Source: a bacterium
GTDB taxonomy: Bacteria; Patescibacteriota; Microgenomatia; UBA12405
Direction: 5' to 3'
Assembly (NCBI GenBank): GCA_021817905.1
Contig: JAKAFM010000006.1
Coordinates: forward strand, 1 to 47,579
DNA length: 47,579 nt
In this document: piece by piece, positions 6,172-30,243 of the stretch
Layout of the letters: every line of letters begins with the position of its first letter
Numbering within the stretch: the first letter of the stretch is position 1
Notes under the pieces: model-generated
Seen by the model: the letters and a program-made list of their open reading frames with translations, nothing else
Database searches by the model: none
Told to the model about the DNA's origin: nothing
Translations under genes and position numbers: made by a program

Positions 6172-6203
6172 ATTATGCCACAAACTTATCAATCGGCTAT
6201 AAT
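6172..6203. promoter_or_regulatory. Divergent leaderless-type promoters (glycosyltransferase / M3 peptidase)
   Basis: The minus strand has TGg-CATAAT with the hexamer at 6177-6172, ending 5 bases before the ATG at 6166. The plus strand has TATAAT at 6198-6203, ending 5 bases before the ATG at 6209. No Shine-Dalgarno sequence fits in either gap. Confidence 0.6.
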
Positions 6204-6208
6204 CAGTG

Positions 6209-7981
6209 ATGAATCCAATTGAAACTACCTGGAACCTTGAAGCGCTTAAACCTAATAATTTTGAGGATGAGTTGCGGTTGATTAAAATCTCTGCTGATAA
6301 TTTGGCCAAAAAATGGAAAAAGAATAAAAGTTATTTAAAAGACAACAACATTTTACTAGAAGCTTTGGAGGAGTTTGAAGAGTACGGAAGCGTATGGGGA
6401 GGTGGCGGAAAATTGGCTTATTATTGTTGGCTAAAACTTAGTCTTGATCAGACAAGCCCGGAAAATAGAGCACAAAATAATCTAGTGGAGCAGGTATTAA
6501 TTGAAAATGCTAATAAACTGCGTTTTTTTGATCACCAACTGATGAAGTTACCTTTAAAACAGCAACGTGTTTTTTTGGAAAGTAAAAACTTGAGTCACTA
6601 TCACTATTATCTGCAAAAATTATTTTCATTGGCTAAATATGAATTATCAGAAAAAGAAGAAAATATACTGGCATTAAAAGATAAAACTGCCCGTGATAAC
6701 TGGGAAACATTGACGGCAAGTTTGTTGTCTAAGGAAAAGGTTGGGGGTAAAACTTTTGAGGAATTGTTGACGGCTCTTAAGGATCAAGATAAAGTAAAGC
6801 GAGATGCGGCGGCGGTTGATTTCAATGGAGTGCTGGAAAAGTATAGTGATGTGGCAGAAATGGAGCTAAATTCAATTTTGGCTGATAAAAAAGTTGACGA
6901 TACTTTACGTAAAATATCGCGACCTGATACCATACGACACCTAAGTGATGATATTGAAACTGAAGTGGTCGATCGGATGTTGGATAGTGTGACGGCACGA
7001 AATACGATTGCCCATGAATACTATCGACTAAAAGCTGATTTGTTGGGATTGCCAAAACTTGCTTATCACGAACGGAGTGTTACTTATGGATCAATTGACA
7101 GAGAATACTCGTTTAAAGATGGAGTTGCTGTGGTAGCTTCGACGTTTTCAAAACTTGATTCACATTTTTGGGAGATTACTTCACATTTTATTGAACACGG
7201 ACAGATCGATGTCTATCCTAAGGTAGGTAAACACGGAGGAGCATTTTGTGCACATTTGAATATTAGCCTACCAACATTTATCCTGCTAAATTGGACAAAT
7301 AGTTTTCGCGATGTAACGACGTTGGCCCACGAACTAGGCCATGGGATTAATAACGAAATAATGCGACAAAAACAGAGCAGTATTTATTGGCGGTCGCCAA
7401 TGTCGACTGCTGAAGTGGCTAGTACTTTTTTTGAGGATTTTACCGTCGATACTTTAGCCGAGGAGGTGGATGATGAAACTAAATTGTCAATCATGATGGC
7501 CAGACTTGATGATAGTGTGGCTACCATATGGCGCCAAGTGGCCTGCTATCGTTTTGAGCAAAGTCTTCATAGTAAAATAGCATCCGAAGGATATTTATCT
7601 AAAGATCGGATTGGAAAACTGTTTCAAGCGTCGATGAGTAGCTATATGGGGGAAGCCGTTGAACAATCACCAGGGTCAGAAAATTGGTGGATTTATTGGA
7701 GCCATATTCGTAATTATTTTTATGTTTATTCCTATTCCAGCGGATTACTAATTTCCAAAGCGATGCAGAATGCGGTACGGAAAGATCATGGTTTTATTGA
7801 AAAAGTGAACTATTTTTTGGGGGCAGGAGCATCGGAATCTCCAAAAACACTATTTAAAACAATGGGGATTGACATCACCAGTGAGGATTTTTGGGACCAG
7901 GGAATGGATGAGGTGGCGGCAATGATAACAGAAGCTAAAAAATTGGCTTATAAATTAGGTAAAATCAAAAAGGCGATATAA
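6209..7981 (+). CDS. pepF: M3 family oligoendopeptidase
   Basis: The 590-residue protein is close to the usual length of PepF/M3B oligopeptidases (about 600). The zinc motif HELGH is at residues 374-378 inside TTLAHELGHGINNEI, and the downstream Glu ligand fits EVASTFFEDF. The all-helical N-terminal half and the C-terminal SYSSGLLISKAM stretch are also typical. It cleaves short peptides in the cytosol and would help recycle amino acids. A GTG at 6206 directly precedes the ATG at 6209; I prefer the ATG because it is 5 bases after TATAAT (6198-6203), leaving no room for a leader. trmD follows 11 bases downstream. Confidence 0.93.
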   Translation: MNPIETTWNLEALKPNNFEDELRLIKISADNLAKKWKKNKSYLKDNNILLEALEEFEEYGSVWGGGGKLAYYCWLKLSLDQTSPENRAQNNLVEQVLIENANKLRFFDHQLMKLPLKQQRVFLESKNLSHYHYYLQKLFSLAKYELSEKEENILALKDKTARDNWETLTASLLSKEKVGGKTFEELLTALKDQDKVKRDAAAVDFNGVLEKYSDVAEMELNSILADKKVDDTLRKISRPDTIRHLSDDIETEVVDRMLDSVTARNTIAHEYYRLKADLLGLPKLAYHERSVTYGSIDREYSFKDGVAVVASTFSKLDSHFWEITSHFIEHGQIDVYPKVGKHGGAFCAHLNISLPTFILLNWTNSFRDVTTLAHELGHGINNEIMRQKQSSIYWRSPMSTAEVASTFFEDFTVDTLAEEVDDETKLSIMMARLDDSVATIWRQVACYRFEQSLHSKIASEGYLSKDRIGKLFQASMSSYMGEAVEQSPGSENWWIYWSHIRNYFYVYSYSSGLLISKAMQNAVRKDHGFIEKVNYFLGAGASESPKTLFKTMGIDITSEDFWDQGMDEVAAMITEAKKLAYKLGKIKKAI

Positions 7982-7982
7982 T
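7977..7982 (+). promoter_or_regulatory. -10 box for trmD overlapping the peptidase stop codon
   Basis: TATAAT lies over the TAA stop of the M3 peptidase gene and ends 10 bases before the trmD ATG. It could give trmD its own transcript with a leader of only a few bases. Confidence 0.4.
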
Positions 7983-7992
7983 TTGAATACTT

Positions 7993-8691
7993 ATGCAATT
8001 TGATGTGATAACGCTTTTTCCGTCAATGTTTGAGTCCCCTTTTGCGGAAAGCATGATAAAACGGGCAATAGGAAAAGGGCTTATTAAACTTAACCTTCAC
8101 GATCTACGGCAATGGGCGGTTGATGAATACGGGGCGGTTGACGACAGGCCGTTTGGAGGTTCAGTGGGAATGTTGTTGCGACCGGAACCGGTTTACGAGG
8201 CGTTACAAGCGATCCATGGGGAAGTCGATTTGTCACCTCAAAAAAAACGAGTTGTAAATTCTAAAAAGCGAATTGTCTTGATGACGGCCGGAGGGACGGT
8301 TTTTGATCAGGCTAAGGCTGAGGAATTAAGTAATCTTGAACAAATAACCATTATTAGTGGCCACTACGAGGGCTATGATCAACGGATCCATGATTATATG
8401 GTAGACGAAGAACTGTCGATTGGTAAATATGTTTTGACGGGGGGTGAATTGCCAGCGATGGTGGTAATTGATGCAGTGTCGAGGTTATTGCCGGGAGTGC
8501 TAGGAAAAGATGCCTCGAGTAAAACTGAAAGTTATAGCGAAGTGGAAATAGAAGGTCAAAAAAAAAGATTAATTGAGGAACCTCAATATACCCGCCCCAG
8601 GGATTTTAAGGGATTGGTGGTGCCTGAAGTCTTGTACAGTGGAGATCCAAAGAAAATTGAGGCATGGAAGGTGATTAATCGAAAGTCATAA
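7993..8691 (+). CDS. trmD: tRNA (guanine-N1-)-methyltransferase
   Basis: The 232-residue protein is the usual TrmD length. It starts MQFDVITLFPSMF, contains DDRPFGGSVGMLLRPEP, and carries the knotted SAM-binding core ISGHYEGYDQR, LSIGKYVLTGGELPA and VSRLLPGVLG. TrmD methylates G37 of tRNAs whose anticodon ends in G, using SAM. The tRNA-Pro(GGG) at 36471 is a natural substrate since it has G37. The stop is followed closely by the convergent end of an 85-residue membrane protein gene. Confidence 0.97.
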   Translation: MQFDVITLFPSMFESPFAESMIKRAIGKGLIKLNLHDLRQWAVDEYGAVDDRPFGGSVGMLLRPEPVYEALQAIHGEVDLSPQKKRVVNSKKRIVLMTAGGTVFDQAKAEELSNLEQITIISGHYEGYDQRIHDYMVDEELSIGKYVLTGGELPAMVVIDAVSRLLPGVLGKDASSKTESYSEVEIEGQKKRLIEEPQYTRPRDFKGLVVPEVLYSGDPKKIEAWKVINRKS

Positions 8692-8707
8692 GTCAAATGT
8701 CTACAAT

Positions 8708-8965
8708 CTAAAGTAAAGTGCCGGTTATGAGTAGAGCGGCAAAAAGCGCCACAAGAAGATATTCAACAACTAGGGAAAATTGAAGATCTCCTTTTTGATA
8801 GTGATGGTATAGGCTCCAGAGGAAGTAGAAGACTGCGGTTCCATAAATTACCCGGCGCTGATAGTGAGGATCGTAAGAAAAATAGAAAAAAACTAATAAA
8901 GCGATGAGTAATCCAAAAAAAAGAAGCAAGAAACTCAACAAGTGTCGTTTTATTTCAGTAATCAT
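8708..8965 (-). CDS. Small three-helix membrane protein
   Basis: The 85-residue protein has three hydrophobic segments (about 9-29, 38-50 and 63-84) with short charged loops. I do not recognise the family. Its ATG overlaps the last base of the CAP-gene stop codon (TAATG), so translation is coupled to the CAP protein and the two may work together at the membrane. Confidence 0.75.
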   Translation of the reverse strand: MITEIKRHLLSFLLLFFGLLIALLVFFYFSYDPHYQRRVIYGTAVFYFLWSLYHHYQKGDLQFSLVVEYLLVALFAALLITGTLL

Positions 8966-9813
8966 TAAAAAAGAGTCCCCTGGCGGGTAAACAATAATAA
9001 AATGAAAATTATAAGCAAAAAAGAAATATGACCAAGAGAGGATCCGGCGATTCGGAATGTCTTTCGCCGCATAGTGATGACGGCATCAACAATAAGGACA
9101 ATTAAGATGACAGCAAACATTATGCCACTGACGACTTTGGAAACAGTTAAGGGGTTAATAATCGTCTGAGTAGAGGCCAACACTTGTGGTATCGGAACTT
9201 CGGCAACGGCGCCAGGTGGATAGGAGGCGTCACTTACGGCCGGATTAAGCGGGGTGCCAAAGTGCTGAACAACCAGGGTAGTTTCGGTTCCATTTAAAAC
9301 TCCGTTAACTACACCTATACCGATTTCCTGGTATTTTGGGTTGATAATATTGGCCCGATGAGTCGGAGAATTCATCCAGGCTCTCATAACTGAATCGGTG
9401 TCATAAAAGTCTTTAGCTAAATTTTCACCGGCAATTGAATATTGGTAATTGACCGCCTTAAAAAAGTCCCACGGAGTTTTGCCTTGGGGGGAATTATGAG
9501 CCCAATAATTATTGGCAAACATATCGTTGGCCTTGGCGGTGGCTGACTTTGATAATAAGGGACTATATTTAAGCGGGGTTAAACCGGCTTTAATTCTCTC
9601 GGCATTGGTTAACTCATAAACTTTTGACCAGGTTATCTCGGAAGAATATCCTAAAATGCCCGGCTTTATTATTGAAAGTGATTTTAAAACAGACTGATTT
9701 AGTAAATACAGAGCAATGAGAATAGCGATAAAGCCTGGCTGGATAAGTAAAGCGCGGTGGTTATTTTTTTCGTGGGGTAAAAACAAAAGATGAAGGCGAT
9801 GCAATATTTTCAC
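8965..9813 (-). CDS. CAP (SCP/PR-1 type) domain protein with membrane helices at both ends
   Basis: The 282-residue protein has an N-terminal helix at about 25-50, a CAP domain at about 65-185, and two more helices near 220-245 and 260-280. CAP hallmarks are LTNAERIKAGLTPLKYSP, NDMFANNYWAHNSPQGKTPWDFF, AGENLAKDF and SPTHRANIINPKYQEIGIG. The His and Glu positions of the CAP cleft are present. Bacterial CAP proteins of this type act outside the cell and have no single known activity. The start is a GTG at 9813, 5 bases after TATACT (9824-9819), so the message is probably leaderless. The flanking helices suggest the domain is held at the outer membrane face. Confidence 0.9.
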   Translation of the reverse strand: MKILHRLHLLFLPHEKNNHRALLIQPGFIAILIALYLLNQSVLKSLSIIKPGILGYSSEITWSKVYELTNAERIKAGLTPLKYSPLLSKSATAKANDMFANNYWAHNSPQGKTPWDFFKAVNYQYSIAGENLAKDFYDTDSVMRAWMNSPTHRANIINPKYQEIGIGVVNGVLNGTETTLVVQHFGTPLNPAVSDASYPPGAVAEVPIPQVLASTQTIINPLTVSKVVSGIMFAVILIVLIVDAVITMRRKTFRIAGSSLGHISFLLIIFILLLFTRQGTLF

Positions 9814-9837
9814 AGAAAAGTATAACCTAAATCAGAG

Positions 9838-11028
9838 TTAATGTTTTAGTTTAGTAATGATGAGAGGTACACAGAGTAACAATCCGCCAAATCCAATTAA
9901 TATAAACGGGAGTGCCCCGGCCAAAGAAGATTTTGATTTGGAAGCTGTTGGGGTCAATACTGGAGTTATTTGATCAGTGGCCGATACTCCCTGAACCAGA
10001 CCATTGTCACCAGTGGTAACTGAAGGTTCGAAGGTGGGTGACGGGACATCAGTGGGAGTGATGTTAGGATCGTCGGTGGGAGTGGGAATGGGAGTGTTAA
10101 TAATAGGAGTTGGGGTGGGAGTGGGATTGGGAGCTTGAATGTTTACTGTATAGTCGGAAGTATTGCTGCAATCGTTACCAGTAGTAATATCGCGACATTT
10201 AAAATGAAGGGAAGCTGAACCGGTTGGTTCGTCAGATTTAACTCTAAATACTCCGGAGTTATTGATGGTATTATTTTGAGTATTGTAGGTAGTGTAGCTT
10301 GACCAGTCGCTGGTATAATTTTCCCAATTAGACCCCTCCTGATTTTCAAAACCATAATTATCGTTAACGCCTCCATAAGCTTTGACAGCGTAATTATCGC
10401 CATTAACAGCAGAGGTAATTGAGAATGTGTAACTATAGTTTTGACTAATTTTAAAAGTACTTGCGGAAAGATTGATGGAAATATGGGCAAGCGGAACTGA
10501 GGTGGCGGATGGTTGAGTGGTTGGAGTAGGTGTTAGGGTGGGAATTGGAGTTAAGGTTGGAGTTGGAAAAACACCAGACATATAGCAAAGGTCAACATTA
10601 TCACTGGCCTGCCAAGTACTGCTATTTGGTGGTAGATAGCCACAAAACATGTTGGTCATATCTATTCCCGAGCAACTTCCAATACAATAACTAGTGTCTT
10701 CAATTGTAGTACTCGTGTCTTTTTTTAGGTAAACCGTATCGCCTTTGCTGTTAAGGTAATTTTGAAAATGAAAAATTGCTTTGGCACTTGGACCTAGCGA
10801 CCCGTAAAGATTCATTTGATTGGTGGCGGTTGAGTCTACCAAAAGATAATTGGTTAAATCGATCGTGCTGGTGCCAGTATTTATTACTTCAACATAACTC
10901 TGATTTACTGGAATGTTTAAAATAGTGCTTCCGGTAGAATTATTTGGCCAAAAACGGTTGAGATGTATATCTTCTGCAAAAACTTGGCGAGGCAATAATA
11001 GGGCTACTAAAAAGAAAAGAAAAAACAT
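9838..11028 (-). CDS. Surface protein with lamin-tail-like domain and Thr/Pro stalk
   Basis: The 396-residue protein begins with a signal peptide (FFLFFLVALLLPRQVFA). A lamin-tail-like (LTD) beta domain follows at about 20-125, with YVEVINTGTSTIDLTNYLL and AKAIFHF. Then come a Thr/Pro linker, a second beta-rich domain at about 178-295, another long Thr/Pro linker and a C-terminal membrane helix at about 368-390. Cysteines in both domains (for example CIGSCSG, and CRDITTGNDC) could form disulfides. The layout is that of a stalked, membrane-tethered surface protein. The ATG overlaps the last base of the gltX stop, which is an odd partner for a surface protein. Function is unknown. Confidence 0.85.
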   Translation of the reverse strand: MFFLFFLVALLLPRQVFAEDIHLNRFWPNNSTGSTILNIPVNQSYVEVINTGTSTIDLTNYLLVDSTATNQMNLYGSLGPSAKAIFHFQNYLNSKGDTVYLKKDTSTTIEDTSYCIGSCSGIDMTNMFCGYLPPNSSTWQASDNVDLCYMSGVFPTPTLTPIPTLTPTPTTQPSATSVPLAHISINLSASTFKISQNYSYTFSITSAVNGDNYAVKAYGGVNDNYGFENQEGSNWENYTSDWSSYTTYNTQNNTINNSGVFRVKSDEPTGSASLHFKCRDITTGNDCSNTSDYTVNIQAPNPTPTPTPIINTPIPTPTDDPNITPTDVPSPTFEPSVTTGDNGLVQGVSATDQITPVLTPTASKSKSSLAGALPFILIGFGGLLLCVPLIITKLKH

Positions 11029-12458
11029 TATAAATTTGCTTCCAGTGCTTGTAAGCGGGCAATAATTTTTTCTTTTGACAAAAAAGCCAAAGACTCGATA
11101 ATCGGAGGGGTAAAACGTGAGCCGGTGATAGCCACCCGCAAGACCATAAAAAAATCGCCTGTTTTCCAGTTATTATTTTTTATACTATCCAAACATTGGG
11201 ATTGCAGTTTGGCAGTATCTTTGGGGTCTGAAATTTGTTTCATTATGGTAACCATTGCTTGAACCATGGCCTTTGCAATTGGTGGAGTGATTTTATCAGA
11301 TAGAAATAATTTTGGATCAGCCTGAATATCAGTAAAAAGGAAGGCAATCATTTGGGCGGTTGATTTGAGGGTTGAGGAGCGTTCCTTGATTAACGGACAA
11401 AGCGCTTTAAGTGTTTGAGTATCTGCTTGAGGAATAAAAGGTTGGAGACGACTAATATATTCATTGTCACTTAATTGACGAAGATAGAGTCCGTTTAAAT
11501 AGTCGAGCTTGGCACGATCAAAAATTGGCTGTTTTTTGTGGACATGTTCAAGACTAAATATTTTGACAAATTCCTCAAGACTAAAAATTTCTTGGTTAGT
11601 GCCCGGATTCCAACCAAGGAGCATTAAAAAATTTAGTAAGGCTTCGGGAAGGTAACCATCATCCAAAAAACTGCGGGCCGAGACAGTCCCCTTCCGTTTG
11701 CTCATTTTACCTTGCCCACTTGGATCAAGAAACACCGGTAAATGGGCAAATACGGGTAGTTCCCAACCAAAATAGCGATAGATGAGAATTGCCTTAGGAG
11801 TTGATGATATCCATTCATCCCCTCTCAAAATATGAGTAATATTCATTAGATGATCATCAACGGCAGCAGCAAAATGGTAGGTAGGAATACCGTCAGATTT
11901 TATCAAGACCTGATCGTCGATTTCAGTTGTATTTATTTTTATAGTGCCACGGATGGCATCAGTAAAGATAATATCTTCGTTATCTGGGACTTTTAGTCGT
12001 ATCACATAGGGAACGTTGTTATCTAAATTAGTTTGAATTTCCTGAGGGTTAAGATGAAGGCAGTGACGATCGTATTTTGGGAGTTGCTTTTGAGCTTTTT
12101 GATCCTGATGCATTTTAGCTAAGCGGTCAGGAGTGCAGAAACAGTAATAGACTTTTTCTTTAGCCAACAGTTCTTGAATGTGGCGTTGGTAGATAGGAAG
12201 TCGGTCTGTTTGGATATAGGGCTGATAAGGACCACCAATATCGGGACCTTCGTCCCACGATAACCCATAATCTTTAATAACTTGCAAAATTGCCTCAGTA
12301 GCACCGGGAACAAGCCGTTTTTGATCGGTATCTTCAATTCGGATAATAAACTGACCATTTTGTTGGCGGGCCAAAGCATAATTATAGAGGAGGGTGCGGA
12401 TGTGGCCGATATGGTATTCACCAGTAGGACTGGGAGCCATGCGAGTTCTGACTGTCAT
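11028..12458 (-). CDS. gltX: Glutamyl-tRNA synthetase
   Basis: The 476-residue class I synthetase has HIGH at residues 16-19 (APSPTGEYHIGHIRTLLYNYALA), IRIEDTDQ just after it, and KMSKRKG near residue 251. A helical anticodon-binding domain follows. It charges tRNA-Glu; in organisms without GlnRS it may also mischarge tRNA-Gln for a GatCAB step, which cannot be judged from this window. The ATG at 12458 comes 6 bases after an extended -10 (TGGTAAAAT, hexamer 12470-12465), so the message is probably leaderless. It heads a minus-strand unit with the lamin-tail gene. Confidence 0.97.
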   Translation of the reverse strand: MTVRTRMAPSPTGEYHIGHIRTLLYNYALARQQNGQFIIRIEDTDQKRLVPGATEAILQVIKDYGLSWDEGPDIGGPYQPYIQTDRLPIYQRHIQELLAKEKVYYCFCTPDRLAKMHQDQKAQKQLPKYDRHCLHLNPQEIQTNLDNNVPYVIRLKVPDNEDIIFTDAIRGTIKINTTEIDDQVLIKSDGIPTYHFAAAVDDHLMNITHILRGDEWISSTPKAILIYRYFGWELPVFAHLPVFLDPSGQGKMSKRKGTVSARSFLDDGYLPEALLNFLMLLGWNPGTNQEIFSLEEFVKIFSLEHVHKKQPIFDRAKLDYLNGLYLRQLSDNEYISRLQPFIPQADTQTLKALCPLIKERSSTLKSTAQMIAFLFTDIQADPKLFLSDKITPPIAKAMVQAMVTIMKQISDPKDTAKLQSQCLDSIKNNNWKTGDFFMVLRVAITGSRFTPPIIESLAFLSKEKIIARLQALEANL

Positions 12459-12464
12459 TTTGTT

Positions 12465-12490
12465 ATTTTACCATTACAATCATGTAGAAT
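12465..12490. promoter_or_regulatory. Divergent leaderless-type promoters (gltX / 348-residue protein)
   Basis: The minus strand has TGg-TAAAAT with the hexamer at 12470-12465, 6 bases before the gltX ATG. The plus strand has TAGAAT at 12485-12490, 6 bases before the ATG at 12497. The two promoters lie within 30 bp. Confidence 0.55.
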
Positions 12491-12496
12491 AATCTA

Positions 12497-13543
12497 ATGA
12501 CGACCCTGACTGAGGCTGCTTATTATGCTCGAAATATCATTAAATATGGAGGGGTAGGACTGATCGTGTTGATAGTTGGGCAATGGGGCATATCATCAGC
12601 GATAAGAGCTTATAACTTGGCTCACCCGCCATATTATCCGCCAACAATGACTTATGGTAAATTACCACCGATTGTTTTTCCAGAAAAAACAAATCCGCCA
12701 GTTACCTTTAGTTTGCAATTACCTAATGATGGGTTTCCCAAGATGAGTGATCAGGCAAAAGTATACTTAGTTTATCAACCGGTTGATAGTTTATTGGCGT
12801 TGGAAGATGGGACAAAAACAGCTAAATCTTTGGGTTTTGATGGCCAACCGACGGAGACAAAAACTGGCGTTTATCAGTGGACTAATGGAGTAACCAACCA
12901 AACATTAACTATTAATGTCTTGGATGGTAGTTTTCATATCAAGTATCCCTATGAGAATGACCAACTTTTGCAAAATCCTGATGTTATGCCAACCAATAGT
13001 GCGGCTATAGCAATGGCTCAATCATTTTTACAACAGGCAAATAAACTGGCTCCGGATCTGAAGGACGGTGAGGCAAAGGTTAGTTATTACAAAATAAGTT
13101 ATACCGGACTTAAACCAGCAGCATCATTGTCGGAATCTAATATTATAAAAGTGGATATTTTTCGAAAGGCAACTGATGATGGAATAAAAATTCTTCCATC
13201 AGATCCGACATCGGCGTCAGTTTCATTTTTGATTAGCGGTTCGACCGTTGAAAGTAAAAAAATTGTTGAAGTAAATTATAGTTATGCTCCAATTGACCGT
13301 CAATCTTTTTCGACGTATCCTATCAAAACACCACAACAGGCCTGGAGCGAGGTTCAGAGTGGAAACTATTGGACAGCGGAAGCAGCAACTGGAACGAGTA
13401 CGGTCATTAGAAAAATATATATTGCTTATTTTGAGCCGGCAACGTTGACTAATTACATGCAACCGATATATGTGTTTGAGGGGGATGGCAATTTTGTTGG
13501 TTATGTGCCTGCAGTTAATTCATCGGAGCTATTACAAAAATAG
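12497..13543 (+). CDS. Membrane-anchored extracytoplasmic protein of unknown function
   Basis: The 348-residue protein has one helix at about 15-36 followed by a long proline-containing linker (HPPYYPPTMTYGKLPPIVFP) and an extracytoplasmic region of about 290 residues. The C-terminal part (TPQQAWSEVQSGNYW, then YMQPIYVFEGDGNFVGYVPAV) has the feel of a PepSY/YycI-type beta-sheet domain, but I would not assign it. The start has no leader: TAGAAT ends 6 bases before the ATG. It converges on the carboxypeptidase gene, with one base between the two stops. Confidence 0.8.
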   Translation: MTTLTEAAYYARNIIKYGGVGLIVLIVGQWGISSAIRAYNLAHPPYYPPTMTYGKLPPIVFPEKTNPPVTFSLQLPNDGFPKMSDQAKVYLVYQPVDSLLALEDGTKTAKSLGFDGQPTETKTGVYQWTNGVTNQTLTINVLDGSFHIKYPYENDQLLQNPDVMPTNSAAIAMAQSFLQQANKLAPDLKDGEAKVSYYKISYTGLKPAASLSESNIIKVDIFRKATDDGIKILPSDPTSASVSFLISGSTVESKKIVEVNYSYAPIDRQSFSTYPIKTPQQAWSEVQSGNYWTAEAATGTSTVIRKIYIAYFEPATLTNYMQPIYVFEGDGNFVGYVPAVNSSELLQK

Positions 13544-13544
13544 A

Positions 13545-14919: not shown

Positions 14920-14920
14920 A

Positions 14921-16699: not shown

Positions 16700-16726
16700 A
16701 ACAATATACTAATATATAATTATGCC

Positions 16727-16896: not shown

Positions 16897-16919
16897 AAGA
16901 TTATTATATACCAACTTGG

Positions 16920-19055: not shown

Positions 19056-19325
19056 ATGGCTAAGAATTTATTTATCGGAAACCTTCCTTTTGGAATGACC
19101 GATGACAACATGTTACAGATTTTTTCGGCATTTGGCCAAGTAACTTCGGCTAATATCGTAAAAGATAAAATGACCGGGCGATCACGCGGATTCGGTTTCG
19201 TAGAATTTGCGAATGATGAAGATGCTGCAAAAGCAATCGAAGCATTAAACAATAGCGATCAAATGGGTAGAAATATCGTTGTCAAGGAAGCTCTTCCTCG
19301 GCCCGAAAGAACTCCTCAAATGTAA
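19056..19325 (+). CDS. Single-RRM RNA-binding protein
   Basis: The 89-residue protein is one RNA recognition motif. RNP2 is LFIGNL (5-10) and RNP1 is RGFGFVEF (44-51), with the aromatic residues that stack on RNA intact. Bacterial single-RRM proteins are often abundant, cold-responsive RNA chaperones. A strong Shine-Dalgarno sequence (AAGGAG, 4 bases before the ATG), a T-rich leader and the strongest terminator in the window suggest high, monocistronic expression. There is no Gly-rich C-terminal tail of the cyanobacterial Rbp type; the protein ends soon after the domain (LPRPERTPQM). Confidence 0.95.
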   Translation: MAKNLFIGNLPFGMTDDNMLQIFSAFGQVTSANIVKDKMTGRSRGFGFVEFANDEDAAKAIEALNNSDQMGRNIVVKEALPRPERTPQM

Positions 19326-19347
19326 AGGTTTTCAAGTAAACTTTTTG

Positions 19348-19372: not shown

Positions 19373-19390
19373 GGTGGATTATAATCACTT

Positions 19391-19435: not shown

Positions 19436-19493
19436 TGTTGGAAGAGTTTAGAAAGATTGGGTGGATGAAGCAAAGAAGCATGCTGGTCTTATG

Positions 19494-20123: not shown

Positions 20124-20129
20124 TACGCT

Positions 20130-20185
20130 AGTTTAACAAATGATTTTAAATTATGTTTATTTATACTGAAAACATTTGGTAAAAT
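20130..20185. promoter_or_regulatory. Divergent leaderless-type promoters (PRTase / CCA enzyme)
   Basis: The minus strand has TGt-TAAACT with the hexamer at 20135-20130, 6 bases before the PRTase ATG. The plus strand has TGg-TAAAAT with the hexamer at 20180-20185, 5 bases before the ATG at 20191. Confidence 0.6.
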
Positions 20186-20190
20186 GAGGC

Positions 20191-21552: not shown

Positions 21553-21593
21553 CCGAATATTTTGGAGTCAGGCAGCTGGTGTTATAATTTGCC

Positions 21594-21932: not shown

Positions 21933-21938
21933 TTTATA

Positions 21939-22817: not shown

Positions 22818-24178
22818 AGTTTTTTGACGGCAAATAAACGTAATAAGGTACGGCTAACAACAATGCTAGTAAAGAGCCCAACGAGGATTCCCAGGATGAG
22901 TGTAATAGCAAAGCCACGAACCATTCCAGAGGAATTTAAAAATGACCAATTAAAGGGGTTAAATAAAATTAGTCCGGTGATAATAGTGCAACTATTAGCA
23001 TCACGAATAGAGGTCCAGGCACGACTAAATCCCAACTCTAATGCAACCTGCCAGGGTCGACCTTTACGTAATTCTTCCTTTAATCGCTCAAATATAAGAA
23101 TATTGCCATCAACAGCCATCCCAATGGACAGTAAAAAACCGACAATTCCAGGAAAAGTTAAAGTGACGGGAATAAGCTTATAGAGAGCCAATGTTATTAG
23201 ACCGTAAATGATGAGACACAAATCTGCAATTAAGCCTAATTTACCATAATTAGCAATCATGAAAAAGGCAACAACCAGTAATCCAACAATACCTGCGGTT
23301 ACGCCTTTGGCAATTGAATCTTTACCTAAAGTGGCACCGACTTGGGTTTGTTGAATTAATTTAATCCTAACCGGCAGAGCACCGGCATTAAGTTGTGCTG
23401 ACAAAGCTTTAGCGGCCTTAATATCGAAGTTTCCCTGAATAATTGCCTTTCCATCGGGAATAACGGTATTAACTGTAGGATAAGATATTAGCTCATTATC
23501 TAAGAAAATGGCGAGACGTTTGTTAAGCATATCTTTGGTGGCGGTTTCGAATTTTTTAGCACCATCGGCATTAAATTCAAGAGATACAACCGGCTGAGAG
23601 GTGTTGGGGTCAAAACTAACGGCTGCTTTAACAAGATTAGAGCCCGTTAAGCCATAGTCTTTGGAAAATAAATCGTAAATAGTAGCACTAGCGGTAGCGT
23701 TAGCGGGAATGTTGACTTCACCTTTAAAATCAAGTTGGGCAGTTTTGCCAATTAAATCGATGGCTTGGTTAATATTTTCGACCCCAGGAAGCTCAACTAA
23801 TAGTCGGTGTTTACCATTTTGTTCAGATAGTTGAACACTTGATTCACTGACACCAAATAAGTTAACTCGACGTTCGATATTGTCTTTAAGTGAGTTAAGA
23901 GCATCAGGAATATCAGCGGATTTAAGTTTAGAAGTATCAGCCTCATAGACGAGTTGAGCGCCACCAGCAAGATCAAGACCGTATTTTAAATTTAGGTCTT
24001 TTTTAATTTCGGTGTTGCCCATTTTTAAATCAAAATCGGGTCGATAAAAAGTGTGGTCAATTTTAACGGGACCAAGATTTAACTTAACCAAAAGTGTTTT
24101 GGGCATATCAATGACTGCGGCAACAATTGTCAAAGCCACTATCATCCAAAATATTTTTAAGGTTTGGGAGCGGTTCAT
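22814..24178 (-). CDS. secD: Protein translocase subunit SecD
   Basis: The 454-residue protein has an N-terminal helix, then the signature KYGLDLAGGAQLVYEAD and a periplasmic domain of about 230 residues with NIERRVNLFGVSESSVQ and AQLDFKGEV. The C-terminal six-helix RND-like part includes IGMAVDGNILIFERLKEELRKG. The gene is in its usual order with secF. Its ATG overlaps the stop of the AbrB-like gene (ATGA), tying its translation to two small regulators. Confidence 0.96.
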   Translation of the reverse strand: MNRSQTLKIFWMIVALTIVAAVIDMPKTLLVKLNLGPVKIDHTFYRPDFDLKMGNTEIKKDLNLKYGLDLAGGAQLVYEADTSKLKSADIPDALNSLKDNIERRVNLFGVSESSVQLSEQNGKHRLLVELPGVENINQAIDLIGKTAQLDFKGEVNIPANATASATIYDLFSKDYGLTGSNLVKAAVSFDPNTSQPVVSLEFNADGAKKFETATKDMLNKRLAIFLDNELISYPTVNTVIPDGKAIIQGNFDIKAAKALSAQLNAGALPVRIKLIQQTQVGATLGKDSIAKGVTAGIVGLLVVAFFMIANYGKLGLIADLCLIIYGLITLALYKLIPVTLTFPGIVGFLLSIGMAVDGNILIFERLKEELRKGRPWQVALELGFSRAWTSIRDANSCTIITGLILFNPFNWSFLNSSGMVRGFAITLILGILVGLFTSIVVSRTLLRLFAVKKL

Positions 24179-24378
24179 GATTTGCGATTTTTAGAAGGAT
24201 TAATGAGTGATAATTGAGTGGGATGCCCAGGAAAATAATAAGAAATCCTGGCTTTTGATTTGTTAATTTTGAGCATGCAGATATCCCCTTCTTTAATATC
24301 AAGATCGGAGGAGATCTTAAAGGGAATGGTAACACATAAGCTATTACCGGTTTTGATTATTTTTCGTTGGTAAGTCAT
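24175..24378 (-). CDS. AbrB/MazE-like (SpoVT-AbrB fold) DNA-binding protein
   Basis: The 67-residue protein fits a swapped-hairpin AbrB domain: IKTGNSLCVTIPFKISSDLDIKEGDICMLKI has the typical GNS..VTIP..... LDIKEGD pattern. Such proteins are antitoxins or global regulators. No toxin gene lies next to it: the neighbours on both sides are a winged-helix protein and secD, both overlapping by 4 bases. It may regulate its own operon. The tail after residue 45 is unassigned. Confidence 0.85.
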   Translation of the reverse strand: MTYQRKIIKTGNSLCVTIPFKISSDLDIKEGDICMLKINKSKARISYYFPGHPTQLSLINPSKNRKS

Positions 24379-24971
24379 TGAACATGTGACAAATCTAGAC
24401 TCGAGCCTATTATAACAGCCGGATAGGAAAGGAAAAAGTCGATTATGAATGGATCACGTCGTGATTTGCGCAAGATAAGCTCATCTTTGTCCATTACCAT
24501 GTAGTTAATTTCCCGCCCGCGGTTTATTTCTTCAGCTTTAATGAGCATATCAAGAACTTTTAGTGTCGGGCTACCAACAAAAATAATATCGACAGAATCA
24601 GTTGTTTTTATATTTCCGGCAATGAAATCGCGATTAAATAAAACAAATTTTAGTTTCCCAAGCCTTTTTTTATGTTTAATAATTTTGGCGCCTAGACCAT
24701 ATGTTTTATGAGTAAGGAGAAGCAGATCATCGAAAAGTGAACCTCCGGGATTAGCCCAGTAATAGAGACGGTTGCCACGAACTTCGGACTCGACAATATT
24801 GCCGGCTTTGAGATTGGCTAGCTCGCGGCGAACAGAATTAATTTCTTCATTTGTGGCGCGGACTAGTTGGCGGACATAAAAGATCTCTTTTGGAGTATAA
24901 AATAATTGGTGAATGAGCTTGAGTCTGGTCGTGGAAATTACCAGTGATTTTAAGCTGCTACTAGCCTTCAT
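24375..24971 (-). CDS. Winged-helix regulator fused to a degenerate nucleotidyltransferase domain
   Basis: Residues 10-70 form a winged helix (RLKLIHQLFYTPKEIFYVRQLVRATNEEINSVRRELANL read as one region, with wing GNRLYYWAN). Residues 105-195 resemble the MNT-type nucleotidyltransferase found behind such domains in archaea and this phylum (EINRGREINYMVMDKDEL, RRDPFIIDFFLSYPAVIIGS). The catalytic GSxxxG is replaced by FNRDFIAG, and the SDxD pair is altered to DSVD, so catalysis looks lost. It is probably a DNA-binding regulator. It overlaps its neighbours by 11 and 4 bases. Confidence 0.75.
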   Translation of the reverse strand: MKASSSLKSLVISTTRLKLIHQLFYTPKEIFYVRQLVRATNEEINSVRRELANLKAGNIVESEVRGNRLYYWANPGGSLFDDLLLLTHKTYGLGAKIIKHKKRLGKLKFVLFNRDFIAGNIKTTDSVDIIFVGSPTLKVLDMLIKAEEINRGREINYMVMDKDELILRKSRRDPFIIDFFLSYPAVIIGSSLDLSHVQ

Positions 24972-26205
24972 AGGTTATTTGATTATTGAGCGGTAAGATT
25001 TCAACCCAGACCTGACCAGGAACGAAATTAACTTCTTTGCCATTTTTCTCACGGAAGATGGTTCTGGCTGTTCGGTTGGGTTTTGACCAGGTAATTTCTT
25101 GTGCAGGGGCACCATTTTGGAAAAGGACTGCTTTACCGGTACCAATAACGGCATAAAGATTGTGGCCATGTTCGTCAATGGATCGACTTTCTTTTGTATA
25201 TTCAATGACGACATTTTTGGTAGTCAAAGGAGATCCGGTGTTGAAGTCTATGTGTGGTTGACCGCCGTTATAGCGGACGTACATATTGGTGGCCGGATCA
25301 TATTTCCAGCTAACAGAATAATCTTTGTAACCAGGCCAAAAGTCAAAACTAATGGTTCCAGGTCCACCACCGACTTTTTGATCGGGTGTCTTAAACGACC
25401 ATGAAGTGAAGTTGCTGTTCCAGGCAGTACCTTTAGCTTGGGTTGTGTTAGTCAAACCACGATCCGAGGCTAAATTCCAAAGTTGTTGAGTTGAACAGTA
25501 CATAGTATGTTCGGTAGCTTTGGTGGTGCCGGTACGGTCAGGTTCCCGTCGACATATTTTATAGGACAGAGAGAACTCGTTCATATCTCCCCAAGTACCC
25601 TTATTGGTCCAGCCATAGGAATCGATTTGCTCCAAGGCGAGTGCCTTGCGATTAGTAGTACACGGTCCACCCGGAGTGGCGTTACTGCAGTTAGCTCCAC
25701 CGACGTGGGTGTAAAGTGGGTAATCAGAATATTCAGAGGCAAGATCAAGAAAATAGGTACGGGCTGACCGGACTGGTCCGACATCGTACTTATTGGATGA
25801 ACCCCTAAGGGCATTACAATAAAATACTCCCATAAATCTGGTAATGCCACCTTCGGCGACCGCTTCGTAAACGATATCAGCATTGGAAAGTCCCGATTGT
25901 GGTCTAGCATCAGCATGATTTTCAATCATAACCATTAGTGGTCGACGGGTGTTCCAAATATCGGCTTCGGCTTGGGTGTGTAATTCGCCATTAATAGGGC
26001 ATGGTACTATTTTTGGTCCACTAAAAGTTAGAATTCCTGTTTTGGTTGCGGGAGCACTGGTGGGCGTGGATGGCTGTGAGGTTAATGGTGAGTTTAGGTT
26101 GGAAACTAATGGAGAAGTAATCTTGGAAAAAACTAGATAACTTAGGCCAAAGATTAACAAAAAAGTTCCTAGATAGATAAATATTGAAGTTATTTTTGAG
26201 TTCAT
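24961..26205 (-). CDS. DUF3048 (YerB-like) membrane-anchored protein
   Basis: I use the ATG at 26205 (414 residues); an in-frame TTG lies at 26211. One helix at about 8-28 is followed by a Ser/Pro/Thr linker and the DUF3048 domain. Hallmarks are PLMVMIENHADARPQSGLSNADIVYEAVAEGGITRFMGVF read as one region, VGPVRSARTYFLDLASEY, and a C-terminal part ending ARTIFREKNGKEVNFVPGQVWVEILP. The family is extracytoplasmic and its role is not known; Firmicute members are lipoproteins. Here a plain anchor replaces the lipobox. It follows the DUF4446 gene by a few bases and overlaps the regulator gene by 11. Confidence 0.9.
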   Translation of the reverse strand: MNSKITSIFIYLGTFLLIFGLSYLVFSKITSPLVSNLNSPLTSQPSTPTSAPATKTGILTFSGPKIVPCPINGELHTQAEADIWNTRRPLMVMIENHADARPQSGLSNADIVYEAVAEGGITRFMGVFYCNALRGSSNKYDVGPVRSARTYFLDLASEYSDYPLYTHVGGANCSNATPGGPCTTNRKALALEQIDSYGWTNKGTWGDMNEFSLSYKICRREPDRTGTTKATEHTMYCSTQQLWNLASDRGLTNTTQAKGTAWNSNFTSWSFKTPDQKVGGGPGTISFDFWPGYKDYSVSWKYDPATNMYVRYNGGQPHIDFNTGSPLTTKNVVIEYTKESRSIDEHGHNLYAVIGTGKAVLFQNGAPAQEITWSKPNRTARTIFREKNGKEVNFVPGQVWVEILPLNNQITYEG

Positions 26206-26212
26206 TAACAAT

Positions 26213-26572
26213 TTAATTTTTAACCGCTTTGGCGAGGGCGACCTTTTCTTCTTTGGACAAGGTCACATTGTCTGCTTGACCGTTCCTTATAGGTTTTGCG
26301 TAAACTCGCGTTGTATCTTTGGCATGAAGTGAAGTGACAATCACACCATCGAGATGACTATCCAATAATACCAAGATAAAACTCTGATCGCCACCTAGTT
26401 CTTCAAACGGATTAAAGCGAACTAGGTTAATTTTTGGATAAGCGAGAAGATTATCTTTTTGATTTGAGGTGTTTGAGGATGATTTGTCTTTGACTTTTTT
26501 GGTGAAAAGATAGGTAAGATAGATTGACCAGCACAGATTCACGATCAGAAGGATGGCTACAACTAGGTTCAT
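26213..26572 (-). CDS. DUF4446 family membrane-anchored protein
   Basis: The 119-residue protein has one helix at 3-24, a Ser/Lys linker and a small domain matching DUF4446: INLVRFNPFEELGGDQSFILVLLD, then GVIVTSLHAKDTTRVYAKPI and LSKEEKVALAKA. Function is unknown. It is first in the operon that runs through DUF3048, the winged-helix protein, the AbrB-like protein, secD and secF. An extended -10 (TGtTACAAT, hexamer 26587-26582) ends 9 bases before the ATG, so the leader would be about two bases. Confidence 0.9.
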   Translation of the reverse strand: MNLVVAILLIVNLCWSIYLTYLFTKKVKDKSSSNTSNQKDNLLAYPKINLVRFNPFEELGGDQSFILVLLDSHLDGVIVTSLHAKDTTRVYAKPIRNGQADNVTLSKEEKVALAKAVKN

Positions 26573-26581
26573 AGTAGCTTT

Positions 26582-26606
26582 ATTGTAACAAAGATTATGT
26601 TATACT
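26582..26606. promoter_or_regulatory. Divergent extended -10 promoters (secDF operon / small-gene and rnpB side)
   Basis: The minus strand has TGtTACAAT (26590-26582) for the DUF4446-to-secF operon. The plus strand has TGtTATACT (26598-26606) for the 57-residue gene. Only 7 bases separate them. Confidence 0.6.
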
Positions 26607-26621
26607 GCCTGTGAGGAGCTT

Positions 26622-26795
26622 ATGGCTAAAAATATAAATAATACCGAAAGTTCGGAATTAAATGAGACGGTTTGGGTCAAACGCCAAATGATTAGAAGTA
26701 TCATCCTGAGTGTAATGTTATTGTTGGTAATTGTATTGGTTAGTTATCTTCTAACGCATCCATCCTTTATTACTTTGTCATTCTTAAGGAGGTGA
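26622..26795 (+). CDS. 57-residue single-helix membrane protein
   Basis: The protein has a polar, Asn/Glu-rich head of about 24 residues, one helix (IILSVMLLLVIVLVSYLL) and a short tail ending in two Arg. An extended -10 is 15 bases upstream and AGGAG lies 3 bases before the ATG, a short but usable spacing. Its last codons (TTA AGG AGG TGA) double as the Shine-Dalgarno sequence of the next gene, so the two are coupled. I do not recognise the family; it does not match SecE. Confidence 0.7.
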   Translation: MAKNINNTESSELNETVWVKRQMIRSIILSVMLLLVIVLVSYLLTHPSFITLSFLRR

Positions 26796-26802
26796 GGACT
26801 TG

Positions 26803-26979
26803 ATGGCCACCATAAAATTTTATTCGGTCAAAGCTAGAAAAGCAGTTGAAGTTGACGTTAAAAACGTTAAGAAAGTCACCCTCAAAAATGGACGTTCTGC
26901 TGCTGAAGCTATGGACCCAACAACCGGAACCAAAATGTTTAAAATCTTATCCGCTGCTGATGCAGCTTTATTAGGGTAA
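26803..26979 (+). CDS. DUF5679-like small protein without cysteines
   Basis: The 58-residue protein has the DUF5679 frame, which in family members reads roughly YCVKCK..., VTMKNGRPA, CPxCGTKMFRI. Here it reads FYSVKARKAVEV, KKVTLKNGRSAAEAMDPTTG and TKMFKIL. All four zinc-ribbon cysteines are replaced, and there are none in the protein. A C-terminal ILSAADAALLG helix is added. AAGGAGG (26786-26792) lies ten bases upstream of the ATG, and a TTG directly precedes it. The stop codon lies inside the rnpB promoter. The family link is from memory of its motif and should be tested. Confidence 0.75.
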   Translation: MATIKFYSVKARKAVEVDVKNVKKVTLKNGRSAAEAMDPTTGTKMFKILSAADAALLG

Positions 26980-26982
26980 AAT
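26977..26982 (+). promoter_or_regulatory. -10 box of rnpB overlapping the upstream stop codon
   Basis: TAAAAT includes the TAA stop of the 58-residue gene. It ends 6 bases before 26989, where RNase P RNA helix P1 begins, which is where transcription should start. Confidence 0.6.
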
Positions 26983-26988
26983 TACTGT

Positions 26989-27254
26989 GGAGAGATTGAA
27001 GGGTTGACTCCGATGTAAACCGGAGAGGAAAGTCTGGACCACAAAAAGCACAGAACCGAAAAAGGTACGGTTAGGCGTAAGCTTAAGGCTCTGCTACAGT
27101 GACGAAGATCCTTAACGCAAGTTGAGGGGAAGTGAAACGAGCATCCTTCTGGTGGAAATCTCAAAGTGGAGCGATATTACCTAGCTTTTGGAAGCCCCAG
27201 GTAGAGAGAATAGATAGATAACCCATAAACAGAATCCAGCTTATCAATCTCTCC
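26989..27254 (+). ncRNA. rnpB: RNase P RNA
   Basis: The catalytic RNA that trims tRNA 5' ends is 266 nt here, short for bacteria. An 11-bp P1 pairs 26989-26999 (GGAGAGATTGA) with 27244-27254 (TCAATCTCTCC). A P3-like hairpin pairs CTCCG 27008-27012 with CGGAG 27021-27025. Conserved region I is GAGGAAAGTCTGGACC (27025-27040) and region V is ACAGAATCCAGCTTA (27229-27243). Their pairing forms P4 with the universal bulged U at 27033. Compared with the common CCGG core, P4 shows two paired changes (U-A and A-U), which supports the fold. The hairpin at 27178-27203 ends in a TTGG loop, and I find no clear GGU tRNA-CCA-binding loop. Confidence 0.96.
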
Positions 27255-27259
27255 AAATG

Positions 27260-28249
27260 TTATTTTCGATTGGGTAACGAGAGAGGATAGAGTGTTTTGA
27301 AAATGACTTGTCCGGTGATAAATATTGGGATTGCTAGGATGGCCCCGATAATTCCGGCCAAGCGGGCTCCAGAGGTAATTACCAAGATGGTAACTAGAGG
27401 ATTAAGACCGACTGTTTCCCGCATTACTTTGGGAACGATTAAATTGTTCTCCAACTGTTGAACTATAATACCGACAACTAGTGCCAAAATTGCGGTAATG
27501 GGAGAAACTGAAAGTCCAACTAATACAGCGATTGCTGCCGAGGCTGTCGGGCCAATACTAGGAATAATTTCTAAGATACCGGCAATAACTGCTAATGGAG
27601 CAGCATAGGGCAAACCTATAATGAGAAAACCAAAGTAACACAACAGTCCAACAACGGTCATAAGAATTAATTCGGCAATTATCCATGATCCTAATCTGGT
27701 TTCCAAATTTTGGATTACCTCAAGAAATTTGTCGTTGCCTGTTTTTCCAAAAAATGGGAGCGAGTAATGGTGGATATTTTTTCTTTCCATTAATAAATAA
27801 AAGGTGATCACTAAAACGACTAATGCTGAGAATATGTTGGAAAAAAGCGAAAAAGTTAGTTGAGCAATTTCACTGGGAATAGTTTCAAGAATTTTGAATT
27901 GATTGTTGAAATCAGCAGCTGTGTATCCAAACAATTTGATATTACTAATAGTTTGAGGAAGGGTTTTAATTAGCCCGGTGCTTTGTTCGGCAATGACAGG
28001 AACGATGCCAGCGACAGCAAAGCCTATTATGGCTATAAGAATTGTATAGATTAAGAGAATAGCTAACGCACGGGGTATTTTAAATTTTTCCAGCTTAGTA
28101 ATGGTAGGGTTTAAGGCCTCCATAAAGATGAAACAAACAAAAAAGGTTAATAATATGGCGCGTAGCTCCCAGATGACAAGCAGGCTTAATAGGAAGACAA
28201 CTGAAAATACTATTGTTTTATAGGATATTTCAACACGGACAGGTTTCAT
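27260..28249 (-). CDS. AI-2E family transporter (PerM/YtvI-like)
   Basis: With the ATG at 28249, which overlaps the miaA stop by 4 bases (ATGA), the protein has 329 residues; an in-frame ATG at 28264 is also possible. It has about eight helices, with conserved FFVCFIFMEALNPTITKLEK early, the loop between helices, and the C-terminal GIVPVIAEQ, EIIPSIGPTASAAIAVLVG and LNPLVTILVITSGARLAGIIGAIL regions. Members are membrane exporters, some proton or sodium linked; the substrate cannot be named. It converges on rnpB with 5 bases between. Confidence 0.92.
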   Translation of the reverse strand: MKPVRVEISYKTIVFSVVFLLSLLVIWELRAILLTFFVCFIFMEALNPTITKLEKFKIPRALAILLIYTILIAIIGFAVAGIVPVIAEQSTGLIKTLPQTISNIKLFGYTAADFNNQFKILETIPSEIAQLTFSLFSNIFSALVVLVITFYLLMERKNIHHYSLPFFGKTGNDKFLEVIQNLETRLGSWIIAELILMTVVGLLCYFGFLIIGLPYAAPLAVIAGILEIIPSIGPTASAAIAVLVGLSVSPITAILALVVGIIVQQLENNLIVPKVMRETVGLNPLVTILVITSGARLAGIIGAILAIPIFITGQVIFKTLYPLSLPNRK

Positions 28250-29148
28250 GCCATATTGTACCATTTATCAACTATTTCCTCTATCTTTGCTTTATATTTA
28301 GCTTTGGTAATGTCGATAAAATAGTCTGGTGCTGATTTATTAAACCAGGTTTTTTGATGACGGGCGTCGCGATGTTCACGGAATTTCCATCTTTGAAGAC
28401 AGTTTTCAAGAGAAAATAGGTTTTGGAAATATGGCTGTAATTCGTGGTAAGCAGAAACTTGGAGTCCCGGTGTAGACCAGGAATAGGTTTTGAGCAATGT
28501 TTTAATTTCCTCAAGATGACCATCTTTAAGTCTTTGGTCAACACGGGCGTCAATTTTTTGATAAATAGATTTTAGTGGGGCAGTAAGCGAAAGATGGAGG
28601 AGGTTATAATTATCTAATTTCAAATTTCTAATTTTTAACTTTTGAGGAACAAGATGGATTTCGATTTTTCGAACGAGACGGCGAGGATTATTGAGGTCTG
28701 AATTATTGAGTGCACTAAAAGTCTGAAAGTCCAAAAGTCTTAAAATAAGTTGTAATTGTTTTAATGTTAATCTATTTAAAATTAGTCTAAGCAATTTATT
28801 TTGTTTGATTTTAAATGTATTTTGGGGATTAATAATGGCATCGATATATTGGCCACTTCCACCGACAATAATGGGGAGCTTGTTTTGAGACCAGAGTTCT
28901 TTTATTTTGGCAACCGCAAGACGTTGGAATTCGGCCACTGAAAATGATTGGTTGGGAGTAAGTAAATCTATAAGATGAATTGGGGTATTTTTAGGATGAT
29001 CTTTACCAACACCTGTATCCATACCTTTGTATATTTGTCGGGAATCGGCAGAAATCAATTCACCACCATATTTTTTGGCCAAGGCTACGGCAATGGCAGT
29101 TTTGCCGGTGGCAGTAGGACCAGAAATGATGAGAAGTTTATTAGACAT
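28246..29148 (-). CDS. miaA: tRNA dimethylallyltransferase
   Basis: The 300-residue protein has the P-loop GPTATGKT at 9-16, then GGELISADSRQIYKGMDTGVGKDHP, HLIDLLTPNQSFSVAEFQ and IIVGGSGQYIDAI. It prenylates A37 of tRNAs reading U-starting codons, using dimethylallyl pyrophosphate. The middle part at about 105-190 is more divergent and AT-rich than the core. It overlaps ychF by 8 bases and the AI-2E gene by 4. Confidence 0.95.
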   Translation of the reverse strand: MSNKLLIISGPTATGKTAIAVALAKKYGGELISADSRQIYKGMDTGVGKDHPKNTPIHLIDLLTPNQSFSVAEFQRLAVAKIKELWSQNKLPIIVGGSGQYIDAIINPQNTFKIKQNKLLRLILNRLTLKQLQLILRLLDFQTFSALNNSDLNNPRRLVRKIEIHLVPQKLKIRNLKLDNYNLLHLSLTAPLKSIYQKIDARVDQRLKDGHLEEIKTLLKTYSWSTPGLQVSAYHELQPYFQNLFSLENCLQRWKFREHRDARHQKTWFNKSAPDYFIDITKAKYKAKIEEIVDKWYNMA

Positions 29149-30211
29149 TGAACCTAAATTCGACTATGTCGTCGGGATGCATAACGTATTCTTTACCTTC
29201 GTGGCGCAATTTGCCTGCCTCTTTAGCTCCATTCCAGCCATTATATTTGACAAAATCATCGTAAGATACAATCTCGGCCATGATAAAACCGTGTTCAAAG
29301 TCGGTGTGGATAACTCCGGCGGCCTGGGGTGCGTTGTCGCCCTGATGAATAGTCCAGGCTCGGGTTTCTTTGACACCAGCAGTATAATACGATTGCAAGC
29401 CAAGTGTTTCGTAGGCCTTTTGAATCAGTCGCTCTAATCCAGACTTAACAACCCCAAGTTCTTTTAGATAATTTTGACGGTCTTCAGGCGGCAGCTCTGC
29501 TAATTCAAATTCAATTTTGGCGCAAATAGGAATAGGATTGGTGCCGTCTATATTGAGTTTGGAATTATCAATGTTCTTATAGGCTTCTTCATCAACATTG
29601 AGTGTAATAAAATAAGGTTTTGAAGTTAATAAGAAGAATTCTTTGACTAAAGTTTTTTCTTCGTCATTAAGGCTTATATTGATAGCTAATATCCCCTTTT
29701 CTAGTTGGCTTTTCAATTTCTCGGCAAGGAAGAATTTTTTGGATTTGTTTTCTTTGGGGTTATTCTTAGTACTACTTATATATTTATCGATAGTTTCAAG
29801 ATCTTTTATAATCAATTCTGCACAAATTACTTCAAAATCAGATTGAGGATTGACGGAGCCTTCTTTGATAATATTGGGGTCGGTAAAATTACGGACTACG
29901 TGACAAATGGCATCACAGTCGCGGATATTGGTTAAAAATTTATTACCTAAGCCTTCTCCTTGTGAGGCGCCTTTGACAAGGCCGGCAATATCAACAAACT
30001 CAACAGCTGCAGGTATTATTTTGGAGGTATTAACAATTTTGGCTAGAACAGGAAGTTTTGCGTCGGGAACTTCGACGACGCCAACATTTGGGTCGATGGT
30101 ACAAAAGGGGTAATTACTAGCATCGGCGACCTTTTTACCGAGCAAGGCGTTAAAAAGGGTTGATTTACCGACGTTAGGTAGGCCGACAATAGCGATAGAT
30201 AATTTAGACAT
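29141..30211 (-). CDS. ychF: Ribosome-binding ATPase YchF (Obg-like family)
   Basis: The 356-residue protein has the P-loop GLPNVGKST at 10-18, [37 protein letters not shown], a coiled-coil insert and a C-terminal TGS domain ([24 protein letters not shown], and [12 protein letters not shown] at the end). YchF binds ribosomes and prefers ATP to GTP. The G4 position reads NVDEE, as in the family, rather than NKxD. The ATG comes 6 bases after TAAAAT (30223-30218), which suggests a leaderless mRNA, and it heads a three-gene unit with miaA and the AI-2E gene. Confidence 0.96.
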
Positions 30212-30217
30212 ATAGGT

Positions 30218-30243
30218 ATTTTACCTTATAAATGGTATATATT
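30218..30243. promoter_or_regulatory. Divergent leaderless-type promoters (ychF / membrane gene)
   Basis: The minus strand has TAAAAT at 30223-30218, 6 bases before the ychF ATG. The plus strand has TATATT at 30238-30243, 5 bases before the ATG at 30249. Confidence 0.5.

Follow-up and report, generated by a model that had tools for sequence, protein, structure and literature searches.

Promoter-like hexamers close to start codons point to leaderless mRNAs in a Patescibacteria genome

Known leaderless genes and the Patescibacteria window

Leaderless genes with a -10 element close to the start codon have been predicted in 207 of 953 bacterial genomes (Zheng 2011, PMC3160421), and a GeneMarkS-2 survey cited in PMC9581028 places leaderless genes in 21.6% of bacterial species. 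Experimental support is available for Mycobacterium (PMC3898074) and Deinococcus (PMC12340547). In Deinococcus-Thermus, TANNNT is found ~6-7 bp before roughly one-third of open reading frames (ORFs), it does not need a -35 hexamer and it is a proven promoter (Zhong 2025, PMC12340547; Zheng 2011, PMC3160421). The bacteria-wide scan of Zhong 2025 left out symbiotic and unclearly classified species (PMC12340547). Here we analyzed TANNNT-like hexamers located just upstream of start codons in a 47,579-nt contig (JAKAFM010000006.1, assembly GCA_021817905.1; the window below) and in the genome that harbors it, a member of the Patescibacteria (Candidate Phyla Radiation, CPR) with 817 kb in 31 contigs. 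It is highly probable that these hexamers are -35-independent -10 promoters that would place the transcription start at the start codon, so that a substantial share of the genes would be expressed from leaderless mRNAs.

Like the -10-adjacent ORFs of Deinococcus-Thermus, the CPR genes have a close box without a -35 and coexist with genes carrying GGAG-type ribosome-binding sites (RBSs). Unlike them, the CPR box is AT-richer, is often extended by TGn, can overlap the stop codon of the upstream gene, and is known here from sequence alone, in a low-GC reduced genome. Leaderless transcripts of Mycobacterium have a matching -10 geometry. The large leaderless share of the transcriptome would be a further likeness to Mycobacterium and Actinobacteria (PMC3898074 and PMC4633059), where the transcripts were mapped by RNA sequencing; where exactly transcription starts and how the mRNAs are translated is inferred here, all evidence being sequence evidence. 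The TA-led genes of Lactococcus are also similar, with low GC, TAtAAT with a strong TG and an apparently missing -35 (Zheng 2011, PMC3160421), whereas the Clostridia-dominated Firmicutes that we sampled have no peak and use Shine-Dalgarno (SD) sites, which the CPR genome hardly uses. The leaderless layout itself is already known and the Patescibacteria lineage appears to be new for it. In the open-access full-text literature we found no description of leaderless genes in CPR/Patescibacteria (a prior report elsewhere is possible), nor any work there that maps promoters or addresses translation initiation in Patescibacteria.

Position and identity of the hexamer

An earlier note on the window had listed ten starts with a TANNNT-like hexamer ending 5-6 nt upstream, and direct reading of the sequence found the hexamer at 10 of 10. 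The list was hand-picked and the box is missing at some first genes of the window, which would suit an origin by chance or composition, with starts picked behind TA-rich hexamers in AT-rich intergenic DNA. The genome-wide analysis (~811 kb, in stretches) was carried out with a gene caller that considers only coding statistics and the type of start codon, never upstream motifs (n = 760 starts). TANAAT ended 5-7 nt upstream of 14.2% of the starts vs. a mean of 1.0% at control gaps in the same sequences (108 starts observed, 7.6 expected; Poisson p ~5e-83). The first T of the box lies ~10-12 nt upstream of the start, above control positions, as in leaderless-type genes. Because the caller is simple and makes start errors (individual starts are uncertain by sequence), the motif percentages are lower bounds. 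An annotation-free count of TGNTANAAT-N5/6-ATG gave 45 occurrences vs. 7.4 expected (p ~8e-21), 22 at gap 5 and 23 at gap 6; gap 7 had 13 and other gaps ~3.7. Expectation-maximization seeded with TGNTATAAT and unconstrained in position peaked at gaps 5-6 in every gene class, and alignment of first genes on the start codon gave a -10 peak 5-6 nt upstream, as the earlier note had anticipated. The upstream-blind calls, the annotation-free count and the control gaps refute the chance explanation, as does the geometry kept in relatives despite diverged flanks (see below), and we give it next to no credence.

The upstream regions of 38 tRNA/tmRNA genes contain the same element, always at least 7 and up to 42 nt away from the mature RNA, although the most distant fits are possibly spurious. 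A matrix trained on these 38 regions only (the tRNA-derived matrix) peaks 5-6 nt before protein-gene start codons. In the window, TATAAT (36448..36453, plus strand) is located 17 nt before the mature tRNA-Pro at 36471, an untranslated RNA with the same element. TAAAAT (26977..26982, plus) ends 5 nt before the Rfam-defined start of the class A RNase P RNA (26988..27259, plus; RF00010, 104 bits); this -10 may serve as an internal calibrator of the distance from -10 to 5' end, and the spacing is the same as at protein starts. Of the 108 motif starts, 40 (37%) have TG before the hexamer, vs. 17 of 100 background TANAAT. No -35-like hexamer was enriched upstream of motif starts genome-wide, and with TG one base upstream of the hexamer and the -35 dispensable, the box has the make-up of an extended -10. 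A pyrimidine is found at -1 in 76% of motif starts and 63% of others (p = 0.009). Since the same element and matrix are found at tRNA, tmRNA and RNase P genes, the identification of the box as a promoter -10 element, and not a translation signal, is supported by the sequence data. Most tRNA genes have a recognizable TGgTATAAT-type promoter shortly upstream of the mature tRNA (e.g., in L014, L018, L010, L011, L021, L050 and L008), and for an uncultured lineage such regions provide a clean set on which to train promoter models.

The hexamer could instead act in translation initiation, as an AT-rich element without SD character within an ordinary 5' leader, as proposed for Bacteroidota and for S1-dependent sites. 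SD use is low in this genome, the zone directly upstream of starts is A-rich in general, and PMC9581028 describes non-canonical, AT-rich RBSs in the FCB group. However, the same TGnTATAAT-type element is also located upstream of most tRNA genes and of tmRNA. These RNAs do not undergo translation by start-codon recognition, and the start-codon peak is recovered by a matrix learned from their genes alone. TGn is a sigma-factor contact and the spacing at RNase P RNA is identical. A translation element in place of a promoter is therefore improbable.

The ten window starts were examined individually (scores are from the tRNA-derived matrix). The extended -10 TGG-CATAAT (6172..6180, minus; 7.3 bits) has a gap of 5 to ATG 6166 of a glycosyltransferase family 2/GtrA-type protein (Pfam PF00535, PF04138). 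The divergent gene, an M3 oligoendopeptidase starting at ATG 6209 (plus), has TATAAT at 6198..6203 (gap 5; 9.5 bits), and the intergenic region is 42 bp. At gltX (glutamyl-tRNA synthetase, ATG 12458, minus) TGG-TAAAAT is found at 12465..12473 (gap 6; 10.9 bits), and TAGAAT (12485..12490, plus) precedes ATG 12497 of the divergent 348-aa gene without Pfam match (gap 6), the space between the two genes being 38 bp. TGT-TAAACT (20130..20138, minus; 8.4 bits) lies 6 nt before ATG 20123 of a phosphoribosyltransferase, and TGG-TAAAAT (20177..20185, plus; 10.9 bits) 5 nt before ATG 20191 of a CCA-adding tRNA nucleotidyltransferase; this divergent region measures 67 bp. TGT-TATAAT (21580..21588, plus) has a gap of 5 to ATG 21594 of a 112-aa ORF without Pfam match, which is absent from the output of the gene caller. 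TATACT (9819..9824, minus) has the same gap to GTG 9813 of a CAP/YkwD-domain protein; this start lacks independent confirmation, as the gene caller preferred TTG 9786. The last pair consists of TAAAAT (30218..30223, minus; 8.9 bits) with a gap of 6 to ATG 30211 of ychF, and TATATT (30238..30243, plus) with a gap of 5 to ATG 30249 of a 165-aa ORF of no confident family, for which the gene caller chose the same start. The caller picked another start for the 12497 gene and relatives independently back 12497, whereas the starts at 9813, 21594 and 30249 have the motif and an open frame only. The TGn upstream of the hexamer was present at all five sites for which it had been claimed (20191, 21594, 6166, 12458 and 20123).

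Gene spacing, Shine-Dalgarno sites and leaders

The earlier note had contrasted first genes, with a close -10, and operon-internal genes, with AAGGAG-type sites, and this contrast did not hold. Over background, the tRNA-derived matrix had an excess at gaps 4-9 of 24.2% at divergent genes and of 26.1% at genes lying 0-60 nt behind a co-directional neighbor; the value was 16.2% for a spacing >60 nt and 1.4% for overlapping genes. The box is as frequent at co-directional genes with 0-60 nt spacing as at divergent genes and is not confined to first genes; only overlapping genes are without it. In gaps of 0-25 nt, the box precedes 33 of 180 genes. In the 0-14 nt bins, 17 of 19 motif matches overlap the stop codon of the upstream gene, and we considered an artefact in which TAA or TAG makes a TANNNT. 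This was rejected, as the rate is still 26% in the 15-25 nt bin, where a single match of 14 overlaps. In co-directional gaps of 0-14 nt the -10 shares letters with the preceding stop codon (e.g., TATAATAG or TAAAATAG), such that the stop codon doubles as promoter. Boxes in tight co-directional gaps may mark either independent units that are tightly packed or internal promoters.

The AAGGAG-type sites are real at rpsD, rpoA, recA, rny and the gene starting at 19056 (plus), presumably the one called RRM in the earlier note. By spacing, recA, rny and the 19056 gene are not operon-internal and look like leadered first genes. The counter-examples to a close -10 are the AAAAGGAG-type SD region of rpoA (39623..39637, minus, before ATG 39622), the AAAAGGAG region of recA (36321..36335, minus, before ATG 36320) and the AAAGGAG region of rny, encoding RNase Y (34481..34496, minus, before ATG 34480). 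SD sites are not a general rule inside operons either, as they are in the minority everywhere: SD-like sites were found at 4.5% of starts genome-wide vs. 1.6% background.

No riboswitch or T-box was detected at Rfam cut-offs in the ~811 kb, and the sole structured mRNA leader is an L10 leader (L004:15181-15292). The near-absence of structured leaders is expected if many mRNAs have no 5' UTR, although riboswitches may be missing from reduced genomes for unrelated reasons. SRP RNA and 6S RNA were not detected at gathering thresholds in the same ~811 kb. The ribosomal protein bS21 is barely recognizable (23 bits, under the Pfam cut-off; G000:C21:68862-69020, minus) and is perhaps divergent in this lineage.

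Because the -10 sits so close to the start codon, the mRNAs are expected to begin there without a ribosome-binding leader. In the proposed mechanism, the -10 elements, often TGn-extended, are presumably recognized by the housekeeping sigma factor, and RNA polymerase would start at, or 1-2 bases from, the A of the start codon. The lower bound for the leaderless share would be ~16-26% of non-overlapping gene starts. Such mRNAs would be translated through recognition of the 5'-end AUG and not by SD pairing, a minority (recA, rny, rpoA, rpsD and others) would retain leaders with AAAGGAG sites, and overlapping genes would presumably rely on translational coupling. Several points weigh against this interpretation. 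Gaps have a tail of 7-9 nt, which would give leaders of 1-4 nt. The anti-SD tail of the 16S rRNA is intact (CCTCCTTT), IF3 and an S1-domain protein are encoded, and strong SD sites are used by a minority of genes; SD initiation is thus not lost. A positive control on the Deinococcus plasmid MP1 was uninformative, because TANAAT is too strict at 63% GC.

Conservation in relatives and distribution in the radiation

The gltX start was compared in 30 loci from the same genome and from relatives of the same genus, family, order and class, of which 28 had a usable ATG near the expected start. TG.TA.AAT was found 3-9 nt upstream in 26 of the 28 loci, with a gap of 5-7 in 24. The loci differ by several codons at the GltX N-terminus, with the box shifting along with the start codon, while identity in the columns immediately upstream of the box is mostly 30-60%. 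In relatives, the ATG at the box-defined position adjoins the conserved N-terminal RTR-APSPTG. In 19 of 25 loci, the start of the divergent neighbor (~346 aa) is preceded by TANNNT with a gap of 5-7; the distance to gltX is typically 31-38 bp. The geometry is thus kept in orthologues of related species, and two back-to-back leaderless-type promoters would thus occupy one tiny intergenic space. The best named match of GltX is on a Ca. Shapirobacteria contig (58%); another bacterium and a Ca. Pacebacteria contig come next, with 51% each. From this one protein, the genome is placed in the Patescibacteria, probably in the Microgenomates. An extra in-frame ATG is present upstream of the likely gltX start in L168, L169, L170, L173, L176 and L180, and in several of them this ATG arises from the TGn that extends the -10 (AATGCTAAAAT); it is a possible cause of start mis-annotation.

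These loci also bear on a third explanation, that the promoters are real and 'leaderless' is overstated, with many mRNAs translated from a downstream start or carrying leaders of a few nt. The 7-9 nt tail and the uncertainty of single-gene starts by sequence speak for it. On the other hand, the peak is at 5-6 nt, and a downstream gltX start is implausible because the ATG directly precedes RTR-APSPTG. In any case, an mRNA whose leader has only a few nt is usually counted as leaderless. We regard this explanation as unlikely, and a start of transcription at or next to the start codon is preferred.

YchF is reported, in PMC9031893 citing Landwehr 2021, as an inhibitor of leaderless mRNA translation in E. 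coli. In the window, ychF (29141-30211) is itself preceded by a leaderless-type -10. Across the phylum the picture at ychF is mixed, with a close -10 at some starts and SD leaders at others.

In 192 Patescibacteria genomes, TATAAT-N5-7-ATG occurred 10,772 times vs. 6,687 for TATAAT-N15-17-ATG. Counts were elevated in every one of the 15 same-class genomes (1,123 vs. 521) and, at p < 0.01, in 79 of the 182 genomes that could be tested, and some families had no excess in these pattern counts (e.g., f18, 469 vs. 476). The close box is found in many but not all CPR families and is patchy across the phylum. Family f19 genomes G109 and G157 have very high counts (187 vs. 40 and 185 vs. 61 in the control), which suggests that leaderless genes are even more numerous in this lineage. 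In several f28 genomes (e.g., G071, G113 and G127) the reversed control GTA-N5-7-TAATAT is ~1.4-2.2x commoner than the forward pattern, which is unexplained. At the gene level, 40 CPR genomes were surveyed with 40 kb each, and only pooled figures are used because there are too few genes per genome. The box was found at 8.5% of starts in the same class (1.2% background) and 6.4% in other CPR classes (1.5% background). The same pipeline gave 0.8% vs. 1.9% background, with 39% SD sites, in Clostridia-dominated Firmicutes, and the box at 0 of 142 starts in Proteobacteria. It is conceivable, though we would put it at somewhat under even chances, that leaderless expression is widespread and possibly ancestral in Patescibacteria. 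In some lineages it might then serve one-quarter to one-half of transcription units. The promoters would be compressed into 30-60 bp divergent gaps or even upstream stop codons, and recognition of the 5'-end AUG would be a routine way of loading the reduced CPR ribosome.

Among bacteria, Patescibacteria form a very large radiation. If leaderless expression is as common as proposed, gene callers that reward SD sites would misplace many of their start codons, and their promoters would be predictable from sequence alone. Genetic tools for these bacteria should then be built on -10-only leaderless cassettes, and their ribosome, which is among the most reduced in bacteria, would provide a natural test of SD-independent initiation.

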